DNA of 41,144 bases, taken from contig SCKP01000013.1 in the NCBI GenBank assembly GCA_004124405.1, positions 1 through 41,144 on the forward strand, read 5' to 3'. This document shows, in pieces, positions 1,607-36,748 of the stretch. Source of the stretch: Fidelibacterota bacterium (GTDB taxonomy: Bacteria > Fidelibacterota > Marinisomatia > SCGC-AAA003-L08 > D37C17). A model generated the notes under the pieces. The model was given only the letters and a program-made list of their open reading frames with translations, had not been told where the DNA came from and searched no databases. A program made the position numbers and the translations under genes. Position 1 is the first letter of the stretch, and each line of letters starts with the position of its first letter.

Positions 1607-1640
1607 TTTATATCAACGAAATACTACAATAAATAATTCT

Positions 1641-1671
1641 AAAAAAAGTGACAGTAATTGTCACTTTTTTT
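1641..1671. terminator. Bidirectional intrinsic terminator between convergent genes
   Basis: A 13-nt arm, A7-GTGACA (1641-1653), pairs with TGTCAC plus T7 (1659-1671) around the loop GTAAT. Because of the flanking A and T runs it should work on both strands, ending the beta-helix gene (plus) and hutI (minus). It overlaps the hutI stop codon at 1670-1672. Confidence 0.85.
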
Positions 1672-2869
1672 ATTCCAGGAGTTTACCTGCTTTCATCACA
1701 TTGAGAATTCTGTCTGAACCCATCCAATAGGGTATTTCTTCAATGGAACCCAATTCCCAAAATAACATATCCGCTTGAAATCCCTCAGCGATTGCACCTA
1801 ATTGTTTTTCACGCTTAATTGCTTTAGCGCCATTCCAGGTTGCACCCTTAAAAGCTTCTTCTATGGATAATCCGCAATATAAGTTTGCCAAGGAAATAAT
1901 GTGAGGCATGGATTGAATAGTACAAGACCCTGGGTTAAAATCTGTGGCAAGAGCAACATCACAGCCTGAGTCAATCATCTTTCGTCCCGGTGCATATTTT
2001 GTTTTTCCCAGAAATAATGTTGTGCCGGGAAGCAATGTGGCAATAACACCATTCTCAGCCATTTTCTGAATGCCTTCATCACTTACAGCCATTAAGTGAT
2101 CAGCAGAAATAGCACCCACTTCAGCAGACAAACCTGCTGCACCTGAATCAGCAAATTCATCTGCATGAAGCCGCGGTATTAAACCACATTCTTTTGCTGT
2201 TTCTAATATTTTCCGGGAATCATCTAAAGTAAAATATCCATTTTCACAAAATACATCACAAAATTCAGCAAGGTTTTCCTCTGCCACTGCTGGAATCATC
2301 TCTTCACAAATTAGCCGAACATATCCTTGATGGTCATTCTTGAATTCTGGTGGAAAATCATGTGCACCCATAAAAGTTGGGATAATATCCAGGGGACTTG
2401 CCTCATTTAATCGCTTAATAACTCTCAGCGATTTTAATTCATCCTCAACTGTAAGTCCATACCCTGATTTAGCTTCGATAGTAGTTGTACCATGAACCAG
2501 GAAAAAATTAACTCTTTCTAAACACTCTTCAAATAATTGATCTTCACTGGCATTGCGAACAGCATTTATGGAAGAAATAATACCACCACCCCTCTCCGCA
2601 ATTTCTTCATACGATTTTCCAGATACACGCATACCAAATTCATTTGCACGGTTACCAGAAAAAATGGGGTGAGTATGAGAATCTACAAAGCCCGGAGTAA
2701 TGAGGGCTCCATCTGCATCAATCTCCTCTTCTGCATCTCCAACAGTTTTTGAAATTTGAATAATAGTTGAATCTTCTACAAGGATTTCAACCTTGGGCAG
2801 AGTGAGCAGTTTATCCTCTTCTGGGGACCAAGTACAAACAGTAGAAATATTTATAATTTTTGTTTTCAT
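1670..2869 (-). CDS. hutI: Imidazolonepropionase
   Basis: Hydrolyses 4-imidazolone-5-propanoate to N-formimino-L-glutamate, the third step of histidine degradation, in the cytoplasm. The 399-residue length is normal for the family. The amidohydrolase metal motif H-T-H is at residues 65-67, just after G-F-V-D-S; later motifs include H-A-D-E-F and the metal-ligand segment A-L-A-T-D-F-N-P-G-S. It lies 35 bp downstream of hutU in the same direction, so the two are probably co-transcribed. hutH and the last-step enzyme are not in this window. The ATG start is well placed, although the Shine-Dalgarno is weak. Confidence 0.96.
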   Translation of the reverse strand: MKTKIINISTVCTWSPEEDKLLTLPKVEILVEDSTIIQISKTVGDAEEEIDADGALITPGFVDSHTHPIFSGNRANEFGMRVSGKSYEEIAERGGGIISSINAVRNASEDQLFEECLERVNFFLVHGTTTIEAKSGYGLTVEDELKSLRVIKRLNEASPLDIIPTFMGAHDFPPEFKNDHQGYVRLICEEMIPAVAEENLAEFCDVFCENGYFTLDDSRKILETAKECGLIPRLHADEFADSGAAGLSAEVGAISADHLMAVSDEGIQKMAENGVIATLLPGTTLFLGKTKYAPGRKMIDSGCDVALATDFNPGSCTIQSMPHIISLANLYCGLSIEEAFKGATWNGAKAIKREKQLGAIAEGFQADMLFWELGSIEEIPYWMGSDRILNVMKAGKLLE

Positions 2870-2904: not shown

Positions 2905-4563
2905 TTAATTAACCATAGGAAGTTTTAGCTTACGCTCTTTTGCAATTTGAATTGCTTTTTCATAACCCGCATCTGCATGACGGGCTACTCCTAGTCCAGG
3001 GTCATTGGTTAGTACTCTATTCAATCTTTCTTTCATCTCAGGTGTGCCATCGGCAACAATTACAACACCGGCATGTATGGCTAATCCCATCCCCACACCA
3101 CCCCCATGATGTACGGAGGTCCAACTGGTTCCACCCGTTGTACTGAGCAGTGCATTTAAAATGGGCCAGTCTGCTACAGCATCAGACCCATCTTTCATTG
3201 CTTCGGTTTCACGATTTGGAGATGCCACGGAGCCTGCATCTAAATGGTCTCTGCCTATTACGATGGGCGCTTTCAGTTCACCTGAGGCAACCATATCGTT
3301 GATTGCTTCACCAAAAAGGTTTCGTTCTCGATAGCCTAACCAACAAATTCTTGCTGGTAATCCCTGGAACTGCACTTTTTCCTGCGCCATAGTTATCCAC
3401 CTTCTTAGGGCTTCATCCTCTGGAAATAATTCTAATACTTTAGCATCTGTTTTATAAATGTCTTCCGGATCGCCGGACAACGCAACCCAGCGAAAGGGTC
3501 CCTTGCCTTCACAAAATAACGGCCGGATAAATGCAGGGACAAATCCAGGGATGTCAAAAGCATTTTCAACTCCTCCATTTTCTTTGGCCTGGCCACGCAA
3601 ATTATTTCCATAATCAAAAGTTATTGAACCCATTTTCTGCAGGTCAATCATTGCCTGACAATGAATTGCCATGGAGCGGTAGCTCATTTCAATATATTTA
3701 TCTGGATCATTATCTCTTAATTTAAGTGCATCTTCAAAAGATATTCCATGGGGAACATAACCATTCAATTCATCATGGGCAGAAGTTTGATCGGTAACTA
3801 CCTCGGGTACAATCCCACGCTTAACAAATTCAGGGAAAATATCTGCACAGTTTCCTAATAATCCAATGGACAGGGGCTCTCCTTTTTCTTTGGATTCATC
3901 TGCTAATTGTAACGCCTGATCAAAATTGTTTACGGAGGTATCCAGATACCCAGTTTCTAAACGACGCTGAATTCGATGAGGATCAATTTCAACCGTAATG
4001 TTCACCCCTTCATTCATGGTTACTGCTAATGGTTGAGCACCACCCATTCCACCAAGTCCACCTGTAAGAGTAAGTGTTCCTTTTAAGGTACCACCAAATT
4101 TTTGCTTTCCCAGCTCCGCCAGGGTTTCGTAGGTACCTTGTAAAATTCCCTGGGTACCGATATAGATCCAACTCCCGGCAGTCATTTGGCCATACATCAT
4201 CAACCCTTTTTTGTCCAATTCCCGAAAGTGTTCCCAATTTGCCCAATTGGGGACTAACATAGAATTTGAAATGAGTACCCGTGGCGAATGAGTATGGGTT
4301 TTGAATACCGCAACAGGCTTCCCAGACTGGATGAGTAGTGTCTCATCATTTTCCAATTTTTTCAAACTTTCCAGTATTGCGTCAAACGCTTCCCAATTTC
4401 TGGCAGCTTTTCCTAATCCTCCATATACAATGAGTTCATCGGGGTTTTCAGCATTATCCGGATCTAAATTATTTTGAATCATGCGATAGGCAGCTTCCTG
4501 ATGCCAACCCTTACAACTCAAAGTTGTTCCTGTAGGAGCTTTAACTGGTCTGGATTTAGACAT
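2905..4563 (-). CDS. hutU: Urocanate hydratase (urocanase)
   Basis: Converts urocanate to 4-imidazolone-5-propanoate using tightly bound NAD+ as an electrophile, the second step of histidine degradation. The 552-residue length matches full-length bacterial urocanases. The glycine-rich segment [11 protein letters not shown] binds the cofactor, and the conserved active-site cysteine region P-A-R-I-C-W-L-G is present, as is [11 protein letters not shown] near the C-terminus. It lies 22 bp after the GHL10 gene and 35 bp before hutI, which suggests a short three-gene unit. Start is ATG. Confidence 0.97.
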
Positions 4564-4585: not shown

Positions 4586-5755
4586 TTAATCAAATGTCGG
4601 GTGTCCCAAGGCTTCATTAATGGGCTGGAACCATTCCAAATTATTTTTATGAGAATCCCAAGAAAAGATACTCACTCCCTTAAACCCATTTAATCTTGCC
4701 AATAATATTTTATCCGCAGCAGATTGAGCATCTTGATTATAGGTGGATATACCGATAATTACCATTTCTAATTCATCCTGAGCTAAATTGGATTTCATAA
4801 TTTGAACTGAATTATTAAAATCCCGAATTTCTTTAAAGTAGTTCATAGGAACTACAAAGTCAATCATCCCTTCCTTAACCCACTTATCCCATTCCTGATA
4901 CCATCGATATTTTGCGTCGATAAGATTAGGTTTCACGGCAGCGCTTAATTTGATATTATTACCTTGTTTATGAATTTCCGTATAAATATTTCTCACTAAT
5001 TCTGTAACTGCATCTCTTCTAAATTTGTCCCAGGCAACATACATTGAATCTACAAATTCCTGACTCCAACCAAAACGTGGAGAAATAATCCCCCGGACAA
5101 TATCTCTTGGGTTTATATCATAAGTATTTTCAAAAACAGCCATACCACTTTTATTATATCCATAAACCTCATCTTGAAACCTAATGTAATCCAGGTGGAT
5201 GCCGTCGATATTATATGAATTTATGATTTCGGAATAAACAGACAACAGGTATGGATTAACCTCAGGATGAGTCGGCGATAGATATACTCCTTCCCATTGA
5301 GGTGATTGTGGTTGAGAAAGTTTAATTTGCGAATCCATTTTACCATGGATATTTGCTTCTGTCCAGCCTTTTTGAGTATGATATAAATGTTCGGGATTTT
5401 CAGGAGGTGTGTTTGCTGACCATAAAATATATGAATTCATCCAGGCATGAACCTCGATGCCCAATGCATGTCCCAGTGTCACCGCGTAATCCAAGGGATC
5501 AAATTCAACTGCTATTTTTGGATGTTTTGGAACAATATCTGAGTTATAAAATGCATACCCACGTCCGCGCACTTGAATAAAAACAATATTATATCCAGAC
5601 TGGTAGGCATAAACCAATGCTGAATTTATCATTTTTTCATTATACATGCTTTCTCTGACAATCCACAGACAACGTGTATCCAAATCTGATAATTGAGCAA
5701 AGGCAAATTGGAGGAGGAAAAAAAACAGGGCAGAATATTTAATTGCCCTGTTCAT
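4586..5755 (-). CDS. Secreted glycosyl-hydrolase-like protein (GHL10/DUF187 family)
   Basis: From the ATG at 5755 the product is 389 residues with a clear signal peptide (M-N-R-A-I-K start, F-F-F-L-L core, cleavage after A-F-A at residue 20). The mature part resembles the GHL10 (YngK-like) TIM-barrel family: an early strand F-I-Q-V-R-G-R-G-Y-A-F-Y, then G-I-E-V-H-A-W-M-N, then D-G-I-H-L-D-Y-I-R-F, where family members carry acidic catalytic candidates. Carbohydrate substrate is unknown. A TTG at 5776 would add seven residues in front of the signal peptide, so I prefer the ATG. Neither start has a good Shine-Dalgarno. The first codons overlap a strong intrinsic terminator (separate entry). The gene precedes hutU by 22 bp but has no evident link to histidine breakdown. 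Confidence 0.82.
   Translation of the reverse strand: MNRAIKYSALFFFLLQFAFAQLSDLDTRCLWIVRESMYNEKMINSALVYAYQSGYNIVFIQVRGRGYAFYNSDIVPKHPKIAVEFDPLDYAVTLGHALGIEVHAWMNSYILWSANTPPENPEHLYHTQKGWTEANIHGKMDSQIKLSQPQSPQWEGVYLSPTHPEVNPYLLSVYSEIINSYNIDGIHLDYIRFQDEVYGYNKSGMAVFENTYDINPRDIVRGIISPRFGWSQEFVDSMYVAWDKFRRDAVTELVRNIYTEIHKQGNNIKLSAAVKPNLIDAKYRWYQEWDKWVKEGMIDFVVPMNYFKEIRDFNNSVQIMKSNLAQDELEMVIIGISTYNQDAQSAADKILLARLNGFKGVSIFSWDSHKNNLEWFQPINEALGHPTFD
5718..5752 (-). terminator. Intrinsic terminator inside the GHL10 signal-peptide codons
   Basis: On the minus strand, AACAGGGCA (5752-5744) pairs perfectly over 9 bp with TGCCCTGTT (5732-5724) around an 11-nt loop, and a run of T residues follows down to 5718. 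This is a textbook rho-independent shape. It lies 53 bp past the rplQ stop, so it would end the ribosomal block. Its 5' arm starts immediately after the ATG at 5755, and its T run encodes the Phe residues of the signal peptide. Confidence 0.8.
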
Positions 5756-5804
5756 AGTTCGAGTTATTTGATTCAAAATAATTTATACTGCCTGACTTTT
5801 GATA

Positions 5805-6236
5805 TTATTCCTTAGTTTCTCCCTTTTTTTCCTCTACAACTTCATTATCAATCGTTTCCGTTACATCTGGAGCTATATCAATAAATTCAATGAGAGAAAC
5901 CGGTGCATTATCATTTTTTCGATTATTCAATTTAATTAGCCGAGTATATCCTCCCTGCCTGTCAGCATAGGCTGGAGCTATATCATGAATAAGGATATTT
6001 GCAATTTCTTTTCCTCTTTTGCCGGTAATTCTTTTTTGGATTAACCGCCGACCATGTACATCGCCCCTTTTAGCGTAAGTCACCAACCGCTCAATATAAC
6101 TCCTTAGTTCTTTTCCCTTTGCATCTGTAGTTCTTATTTTTTTATGGATGACCAAAGATGCCGCAAGGTTACTAAACAATGCTTTCCGGTGGCTAGCTGT
6201 CCGGTTAAGTTTTCTTCCTTTTTTCTGATGCCTCAT
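5805..6236 (-). CDS. rplQ: Ribosomal protein bL17
   Basis: Large-subunit protein L17, the last gene of the alpha cluster. The N-terminus M-R-H-Q-K-K-G-R-K-L-N-R and the segment H-R-K-A-L-F-S-N-L-A are diagnostic. The product has 143 residues; the conserved core is followed by an acidic tail (T-E-T-I-D-N-E-V-V-E-E) that makes it longer than minimal L17 proteins. It starts 9 bp after rpoA. The terminator at 5718-5752 lies just beyond it, which fits its position as the final gene of the block. Confidence 0.97.
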   Translation of the reverse strand: MRHQKKGRKLNRTASHRKALFSNLAASLVIHKKIRTTDAKGKELRSYIERLVTYAKRGDVHGRRLIQKRITGKRGKEIANILIHDIAPAYADRQGGYTRLIKLNNRKNDNAPVSLIEFIDIAPDVTETIDNEVVEEKKGETKE

Positions 6237-19952: not shown

Positions 19953-21170
19953 TTTCTCTACCTATTCAATAATTTCAGTTACAACGCCAGCACCAACCGT
20001 ATGACCACCTTCACGGATTGCAAATCGAAGCTCCTGCTCCATGGCAATTGGCGTAATAAGTTCTACATTTAAATTGACATTATCTCCAGGCATCACCATC
20101 TCTGTACCTTCCGGAAGAATAATAGATCCAGTCACATCCGTTGTCCTAAAATAAAACTGAGGACGGTAACCCTTGAAAAACGGTGTATGACGTCCACCTT
20201 CTTCTTTCTTAAGAACATAGATCTCTGCCTTAAACTTTTTATGGGGTGTAATACTGCCAGGTTTGGCCAACACCATCCCACGGTCAATCTCATCTTTCTC
20301 AACACCACGAAGAAGAAGTCCTGCATTATCACCAGCCTGTCCTTCATCTAATATCTTTCTAAACATTTCAACACCTGTACATACCGTCTTAACTTTAGAT
20401 CCCATACCTACAAGTTCCAAGCTCTCACCCACCTTTATAATACCACTTTCAATTCTTCCTGTTGCAACGGTTCCTCTTCCCGTTATTGAAAATACATCTT
20501 CAACAGGCATGAGAAATGGTTTGTCAACTGCGCGCTCCGGAGTTGGAATAAAATTATCTACCTGATCCATAAGTTCGAAGATAGGCTTTGCAGCATCACC
20601 AGTACCATCTGAATTTAATGCATTTAAAGCGCTACCCTGAATAATAGGGGTATCATCACCTGGAAATCCATATTCTGATAGTAATTCTCTCAGCTCCATT
20701 TCAACCAGCTCTAACAGTTCCGGATCATCTACCTGATCACATTTGTTCATAAAAATTACAATAGAAGGAACATTTACCTGCTTGGCTAAAAGTAAGTGCT
20801 CCCTAGTCTGCTGCATAGGTCCATCAGTTGCAGCTACAACCAAAATAGCTCCATCCATTTGCGCTGCACCTGTAATCATGTTTTTAATATAGTCCGCGTG
20901 ACCAGGGCAATCTACATGCGCATAATGACGCGCCTCTGTCTCATATTCAACATGGGCAGTATTAATTGTAATACCACGCTCACGCTCTTCCGGCGCATTA
21001 TCTATCTGGTCAAAGGCGGTAACCTCGGCAAGCCCTTTGGTTGCCAAACACTTGGTTATAGCAGCTGTCAAGGTAGTCTTACCATGGTCAACGTGACCAA
21101 TTGTGCCCACATTTACGTGAGGCTTCGTTCTTTCAAATTTCGCTTTTGCCATAATTTAAGTATCTCCTTA
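19953..21170. repeat. Direct repeat copy 1 (tuf1 and flanks)
   Basis: 1218-bp segment nearly identical to 35531-36748 in the same orientation and without indels. By eye I count nine base differences, all inside tuf. Identity extends 9 bp beyond the stop and 18 bp beyond the start, including the Shine-Dalgarno. This pattern is expected for gene conversion between tuf copies. Confidence 0.95.
19962..21152 (-). CDS. tuf: Elongation factor Tu, copy 1
   Basis: GTPase that delivers aminoacyl-tRNA to the ribosome. 396 residues. GTP-binding motifs: G-H-V-D-H-G-K-T (P-loop), the effector region [14 protein letters not shown] and N-K-C-D. Domain 2 carries the normal G-R-G-T-V-A-T-G-R (Gly227). A good ribosome site, AAGGAGAT, lies 11-12 bases before the ATG. 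It sits 38 bp after fusA and 14 bp before rpsJ, the usual str-operon place. It differs from copy 2 at residues 208 (Ala), 218 (Glu) and 227 (Gly). Confidence 0.98.
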
Positions 21171-35531: not shown

Positions 35532-36748
35532 TTCTCTACCTATTCAATAATTTCAGTTACAACGCCAGCACCAACCGTATGGCCACCTTCACGGATTGCA
35601 AATCGAAGCTCCTGCTCCATGGCAATTGGCGTAATAAGTTCTACATTTAAATTGACATTATCTCCAGGCATCACCATCTCTGTACCTTCCGGAAGAATAA
35701 TAGATCCAGTCACATCCGTTGTCCTAAAATAAAACTGAGGACGGTAACCCTTGAAAAACGGTGTATGACGTCCACCTTCTTCTTTCTTAAGAACATAGAT
35801 CTCTGCCTTAAACTTTTTATGGGGTGTAATACTGCCAGGTTTGGCCAACACCATCCCACGGTCAATCTCATCTTTCTCAACACCACGAAGAAGAAGTCCT
35901 GCATTATCACCAGCCTGTCCTTCATCTAATATCTTTCTAAACATTTCAACACCTGTACATACCGTCTTAACTTTAGATCCCATACCTACAAGTTCCAAGC
36001 TCTCACCCACCTTTATAATACCACTTTCAATTCTTCCTGTTGCAACGGTTACTCTTCCCGTTATTGAAAATACATCGTCAACAGGCATGAGAAATGGTTT
36101 GTCAACTGAGCGCTCCGGAGTTGGAATAAAATTATCTACCTGATCCATAAGTTCGAAGATAGGCTTTGCAGCATCACCAGTACCATCTGAATTTAATGCA
36201 TTTAAAGCGCTACCCTGAATAATAGGGGTATCATCACCTGGAAATCCATATTCTGATAATAATTCTCTCAGCTCCATTTCAACCAACTCTAACAGTTCCG
36301 GATCATCTACCTGATCACATTTGTTCATAAAAATTACAATAGAAGGAACATTTACCTGCTTGGCTAAAAGTAAGTGCTCCCTGGTCTGCTGCATAGGTCC
36401 ATCAGTTGCAGCTACAACCAAAATAGCACCATCCATTTGCGCTGCACCTGTAATCATGTTTTTAATATAGTCCGCGTGACCAGGGCAATCTACATGCGCA
36501 TAATGACGCGCCTCTGTCTCATATTCAACATGGGCAGTATTAATTGTAATACCACGCTCACGCTCTTCCGGCGCATTATCTATCTGGTCAAAGGCGGTAA
36601 CCTCGGCAAGCCCTTTGGTTGCCAAACACTTGGTTATAGCAGCTGTCAAGGTAGTCTTACCATGGTCAACGTGACCGATTGTGCCCACATTTACGTGAGG
36701 CTTCGTTCTTTCAAATTTCGCTTTTGCCATAATTTAAGTATCTCCTTA
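35531..36748. repeat. Direct repeat copy 2 (tuf2 and flanks)
   Basis: Partner of 19953-21170, 1218 bp and indel-free. The shared segment begins at the first base of the rpmG start codon and ends 18 bp upstream of the tuf2 ATG. Six of nine differences are synonymous and scattered. Three are non-synonymous and lie within 60 bp. Confidence 0.95.
35540..36730 (-). CDS. tuf: Elongation factor Tu, copy 2
   Basis: Second EF-Tu gene, 396 residues, with the same GTPase motifs and ribosome site as copy 1. It differs by Ala208Ser, Glu218Asp and Gly227Val. The last change turns the domain-2 motif G-R-G-T-V into G-R-V-T-V. That glycine is strongly conserved across EF-Tu proteins, so the product may be impaired or the base may be miscalled. 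It is transcribed after four tRNAs and before rpmG, tRNA-Trp and secE, a layout like E. coli tufB. Confidence 0.97.

Follow-up and report, generated by a model that had tools for sequence, protein, structure and literature searches.

An ordinary intrinsic terminator has a G+C-rich stem of 8–12 bp followed by a U tract and lies tens of nucleotides past the last stop codon of its operon. It can also limit transcription into the next gene: in Escherichia coli the frd operon terminator acts as the ampC attenuator, and it is not known to form part of the ampC coding region. Intrinsic terminators that share sequence with a translated frame, or can come to do so, are known from the pyrBI attenuator of E. 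coli and the pil1 leader of Streptococcus gallolyticus (PMC3894217), in which the frames are short regulatory leader peptides and control by the ribosome was shown experimentally. Terminators within reading frames exist, can work and give non-stop mRNA, as reported in two studies, one mapping ORF-internal 3' ends in E. coli (PMC7815308) and the other placing terminators in coding regions by design (PMC4824070). Both are single-species or synthetic, and neither is known to describe deep conservation or the recruitment of a terminator as a targeting peptide.

Here, we describe a putative terminator that shares the build and position of ordinary ones and would, like that of frd, limit transcription into the following gene. 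In contrast to these, it lies inside the coding sequence of that gene throughout a phylum and shapes its amino acids. It differs from the pyrBI and pil1 cases in that the frame is a structural gene whose codons make its signal peptide, and in being known from sequence alone. A literature search of open-access papers found no report of a terminator-in-signal-peptide arrangement.

The window, that is, the whole stretch of DNA analysed, comprises 41,144 nucleotides of a Fidelibacterota genome. Its minus strand carries the order nusG, L11, L1, L10, L7/L12, rpoB, rpoC, S12, S7, fusA, tuf, S10 and onward to L17 (names read from the sequences). Because the genes from tuf (36.7 kb) to rplQ lie on one strand and are tightly packed, a ribosomal transcript of roughly 30 kb is plausible. 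Two tuf (EF-Tu) genes of equal length and identical listed N-terminus (minus strand, 35540–36730 and 19962–21152) form an apparently duplicate pair, one by a tRNA cluster and the other in the S12-S7-fusA-tuf run; both copies contain an identical hairpin-like stretch. Behind rplQ follows a gene for a glycosyl hydrolase-like 10 (GHL10) protein (Table 1). Its product is probably secreted and peptidoglycan-active, and a cell-wall role is likely from its sequence resemblance to Cwp19. The hairpin just past hutI likely ends the GHL10-hutU-hutI unit and may serve both strands. In many relatives (families f1–f3 and f7) hutU also stands behind GHL10, with hutI following in the window, so that histidine-degradation genes come after the ribosomal operon; the fetched f4 loci showed no hutU behind GHL10.

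Table 1. Coordinates of the rplQ-GHL10 junction and its neighbours in the window.
Feature	Position	Strand	Evidence or remark
rplQ (ribosomal protein L17), last of the ribosomal-protein run	5805–6236	-	Pfam Ribosomal_L17 1.9e-30; TIGR00059 above cut-off
GHL10 gene, glycosyl hydrolase-like 10	4586–5776	-	PF02638 1.5e-24, 87.2 bits (cut-off 27.9); Cwp19 (5oq2) 4.6e-10
TTG, likeliest GHL10 start	5774–5776	-	23 nt ahead of stem; kept in same-genus relatives
ATG, start taken in the first-pass annotation	5753–5755	-	present in 4 of 5 same-genus genomes examined
Putative signal-peptide codons with terminator inside, MNQITRTMNRAIKYSALFFFLLQFAFA then Q	5696–5776	-	frame open and hydrophobic, unlike other two frames
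5' stem arm AACAGGGCA	5744–5752	-	codons ..Asn-Arg-Ala..; covariation
Loop ATTAAATATTC, 11 nt	5733–5743	-	
3' stem arm TGCCCTGTT	5724–5732	-	codons ..Ala-Leu-Phe..; covariation
U tract, 8 T (two paired in stem)	5718–5725	-	codons Phe-Phe-Phe
hutU (urocanate hydratase)	2905–4563	-	22-nt gap after GHL10; Pfam Urocanase domains; adjacency in many relatives
hutI-like amidohydrolase, last gene of the run	1670–2869	-	Pfam Amidohydro_1
Ordinary hairpin and T run just past hutI	1640–1672	-	terminator scans

The first-pass annotation had noted a 9-bp stem and T run in the first GHL10 codons, and this was borne out. Read 5' to 3' on the minus strand from 5752, the two arms and their loop are followed by T6 and then CCTCC, and the stem consists of 9 perfect bp plus one outer G.U. 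The local fold of 57 nt reaches -15.5 kcal/mol (z -5.2, equalled by 0 of 200 shuffles); that of a 131-nt stretch is not unusual (z -1.3). The stem begins 51–52 nt past the rplQ stop (5805), and its sequence occurs once in the 1.66-Mb genome. In our own scan it was the top terminator-like site of the window (dG -14.1; the next, -10.9). A generic terminator scan of the window missed it because the 11-nt loop exceeds the 8-nt limit of that scan, which showed no excess of terminators over shuffles, and no Rfam family matched at the hairpin site. The site has a stable G+C-rich stem-loop, a U tract directly after the stem and compensatory changes in relatives, all marks of an intrinsic terminator, and the 3' end of rplQ-operon transcripts is predicted at about 5718.

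The named relatives of the source genome belong to Candidatus Neomarinimicrobiota (Marinimicrobia), a marine bacterial phylum; a search of 245 of its genomes detected GHL10 in 200. Contig ends aside, rplQ lay directly ahead of GHL10 in every fetched junction. Among 157 such junctions, drawn from 27 families, the scanner located a strong hairpin with its U tract within the open GHL10 frame in 147; two more came to light on inspection. L183 and L193 were considered as hairpin losses and rejected, since the hairpin is kept in both, masked in one by an N in the loop and carrying in the other a broken U tract. On a quick tree, the hairpin was present in 148 of the 156 usable junctions, with three parsimony changes. 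The eight junctions without it (L015, L018, L023, L024, L025, L030, L221 and L014) all fall in a single clade of small, A+T-rich genomes within the window's own family. These absences are losses, because the hairpin is older than the clade. All eight genomes still keep the rplQ-GHL10 order and a hydrophobic N-terminus, so the hairpin is dispensable there, and GHL10 may be fully co-transcribed with the ribosomal genes. Relatives that keep the signal peptide and not the stem had been named beforehand as the pattern that would speak against the overlap; it is absent from nearly all genomes and confined to this one clade. In family f6 (L241–L253, genomes of roughly 1 Mb) GHL10 was not found; there rplQ and its neighbour are convergent, and the search past rplQ found no terminator hairpin.

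Is the hairpin conserved in its own right or through the peptide? In a synonymous null, peptides were kept fixed and codons redrawn from local usage, itself estimated from short loci. The mean best dG was -14.8 kcal/mol as observed over 147 junctions vs -3.8 kcal/mol after recoding, and 278 of 29,400 recodings reached the observed value. None of 200 versions of the window peptide with resampled synonymous codons matched its hairpin.

Covariation pointed the same way. A codon alignment built from the proteins alone, with structure ignored, put the stem in identical columns in 139 of 140 sequences, and the ten core pairs were 94.5% complementary vs 34–64% with slid partners. The 57 distinct stems were 93.2% paired (shuffles, 77.8 ± 1.0), had 114 cells changed on both sides (shuffles, 35.3 ± 7.6) and gave a covariation score of 0.566 (shuffles, 0.259 ± 0.016). 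Double compensatory changes occurred at 8 of the 10 stem pairs, many of them non-synonymous, and RNAalifold found the identical stem unaided. Tree-separated comparisons counted about 28 co-changes toward pairing and 0.3 against, a result informative only as a sum, as the per-pair phylogenetic sign tests were mostly under-powered and one-codon-slid partners were mixed.

The stem arms run antiparallel, so that first codon positions pair with second ones and third with third. Across the stem, Arg (AGG) accompanies Leu (CTN) and Lys (AAG) accompanies Phe (TTN); in 140 sequences this Arg..Leu/Lys..Phe pair was G-C in 81, A-U in 50, G-U in 9 and never A-C. Inner codon partners were Gly GGG with Pro CCT, Thr ACN with Val GTT, and Val GTN with Thr ACT or Ala GCT; further ones were GCA-GCC, ACA-GTC and GTA-ACC. 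The compensating changes that the first-pass annotation had looked to in relatives were thus found, and go further than foreseen in that amino acids change in matched pairs. In one family (f25; L207, L211, L216 and L218) the codon phase across the stem differs, giving ..KGNLKRLPFLL... The recoding null, the paired amino-acid changes and this phase together argue that the RNA is conserved first and the peptide must fit it; by independent tests, selection clearly acts on the hairpin RNA. The f25 reading frame has shifted around an unchanged hairpin, unlike that of all other families.

The origin of the overlap is suggested by loci in which the hairpin is not translated. The order rplQ-terminator-GHL10 is common, too, in the outgroup phylum, to which Calditrichaeota genome G247 belongs. 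There, the terminator is a non-coding spacer in most loci and GHL10 starts past it; four loci (L262, L268, L277 and L278) are ambiguous, as the open frame can begin ahead of the first start codon. Within family f12, in which GHL10 behind rplQ was lost, two genomes carry a like hairpin as a spacer 19–21 nt past rplQ. GHL10 genes that do not lie behind rplQ, in the outgroup and as ten Neomarinimicrobiota paralogues, had no in-gene hairpin. Because both the outgroup phylum and f12 hold the terminator as non-coding spacer, the rplQ-operon terminator has apparently been turned into the GHL10 signal peptide, and we infer, as the simplest history, that evolution ran from spacer terminator to coding sequence.

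It is thus very probable, in our judgement, that the hairpin is the intrinsic terminator of the ribosomal operon ending in rplQ, overrun by the GHL10 start and kept under dual selection as a leaky attenuator. In the ancestor of Neomarinimicrobiota, the GHL10 start would have come to lie upstream of the terminator, so that hairpin and U tract would now be translated as the n- and h-region of a Sec signal peptide. Codon choice and paired amino-acid changes would keep the stem and U tract, and the peptide would be kept charged, then hydrophobic. Transcription past rplQ would mostly end at the U tract, with a small share of polymerases continuing into GHL10 and its downstream genes. The site would act as a fixed attenuator that sets very high ribosomal expression apart from low expression of a secreted enzyme. 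The earlier proposal that the same bases end a ribosomal transcript and encode a secretion signal is, in comparative terms, strongly supported by conservation, the recoding null, covariation and the open frame; termination itself, the level of the leak and signal-peptide function we infer. Against this model, GHL10 may have an unseen promoter inside rplQ or rpoA.

A constitutive leaky terminator is favored because of its distance from the rplQ stop and the range in which E. coli terminators are efficient. In one E. coli study, a ribosome at the stop codon ceases to block termination beyond about 27 nt, and terminators that lie more than about 27 nt from the upstream stop and no more than 100 bp into a coding region are efficient (PMC4824070). 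Of 146 junctions, 138 have 27 nt or more between the rplQ stop and the stem.

The main alternative is that translation controls the attenuator: a ribosome starting at the GHL10 TTG or ATG close behind the polymerase would melt the hairpin, and the initiation rate would set readthrough into GHL10-hutU-hutI. The terminator does lie inside a presumably translated frame, 20–30 nt past the start, and this distance is tightly kept (phylum median 26 nt; a canonical start at 15–35 nt in 131 of 143 junctions). Ribosome-melted in-frame terminators have precedents in the pil1 leader and, as cited in PMC4824070, in the pyrBI leader. The first-pass annotation had made the ATG at 5755 the start, so that an initiating ribosome would cover the hairpin; the comparison favors neither claim. 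The window gene probably starts at TTG 5776, and G001, which lacks the ATG, has a TTG at nearly equal distance from the stem. With the conserved TTG about 26 nt ahead of the stem, a ribosome initiating there would leave the stem uncovered. In addition, the start codon is often a bare TTG (the sole start type available in 50 junctions), no competing hairpin stood out in the 57-nt and 131-nt folds, and in E. coli there is hardly any repression of terminators placed less than 100 bp into a coding region (PMC4824070). On this geometry, and with no stall codons, pause motif or alternative hairpin seen that could serve as a sensor, we rank translation control second and regard it as unlikely. The idea that the weak TTG is an adaptation against non-stop mRNA was dropped as not distinctive: TTG seems to be the start of several of the window's ribosomal genes as well.

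A hairpin just past a start codon can slow initiation, and protective stems often end highly expressed mRNAs. The structure could accordingly be kept for 3' processing and stability, or as a brake on GHL10 translation, and not for stopping transcription. Neither role needs the U tract, however, which is kept at synonymous third positions. Across the phylum, T occupies 79–86% of third codon positions inside the tract and 34–38% just after it, being kept over about four codons before it decays. Both roles are also at odds with f12, which keeps stem and U tract without GHL10, and with the ordinary terminators found in the same interval at outgroup loci. We regard this explanation as improbable.

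Many GHL10 starts are TTG codons with no obvious Shine-Dalgarno site, which could mean that the gene starts past the hairpin, leaving the hairpin as a 5' leader within an accidentally open frame. The frame statistics rule against this, and we give it very little credence. Between 24 nt ahead of the stem and the domain, the GHL10 frame stays open in 143 of 146 junctions, vs 6 and 36 for the other two frames, and in at least one of the three exceptions, G042, the start codon falls inside the 24-nt margin. Mean peak hydropathy is 2.93 in the GHL10 frame vs 1.66 and 1.27 in the others. No in-frame start lies between hairpin and domain in 81 of 146 junctions, and the gap of about 18 codons from stem to domain is too short for a second signal peptide to fit. 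In the window, MNQITRTMNRAIKYSALFFFLLQFAFA/Q has the charged start, hydrophobic core and small-x-small cleavage site expected of a Sec signal peptide (judged by eye, frame and hydropathy), and the GHL10 N-terminus would function as one.

Finally, the chance that conserved signal-peptide residues merely happen to give complementary codons, as the fairly constant motif Arg/Lys-Ala ... Ala-Leu/Phe-Phe might suggest, is negligible in view of the synonymous null, the slid-partner and shuffle controls, the paired non-synonymous changes, the f25 phase and the absence of the hairpin from GHL10 genes not behind rplQ.

Taking the hairpin as a leaky rplQ-operon terminator, the arrangement has consequences for annotation. 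Start codons of this kind may be placed further downstream by gene callers, and a terminator finder that skips coding sequence will overlook sites like this one. About 150 natural variants are available for the study of how termination works within a gene. Normally, terminators stay out of coding sequence, since within a gene a terminator truncates the mRNA of that gene and produces transcripts with no stop codon. In Neomarinimicrobiota the two appear to have stayed overlapped while the whole phylum diverged, and signal-peptide residues have changed in pairs that preserve the stem. This would be a clean natural case of dual coding and would show how a targeting peptide could plausibly emerge from non-coding DNA.

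The overlap would also carry a cost. Terminated mRNAs would carry the GHL10 start without a stop codon, and initiation on them would give non-stop complexes that burden ribosome rescue; tmRNA is present in the window's genome. We tentatively propose, as a possibility in which we have limited confidence, that the signal peptide of an entire phylum arose from a working terminator and still consists of one, that its two readings co-evolve, and that, since each terminated ribosomal mRNA would end in the open GHL10 frame, export of a cell-wall enzyme is also coupled to ribosome initiation and to non-stop rescue where the ribosomal operon ends.
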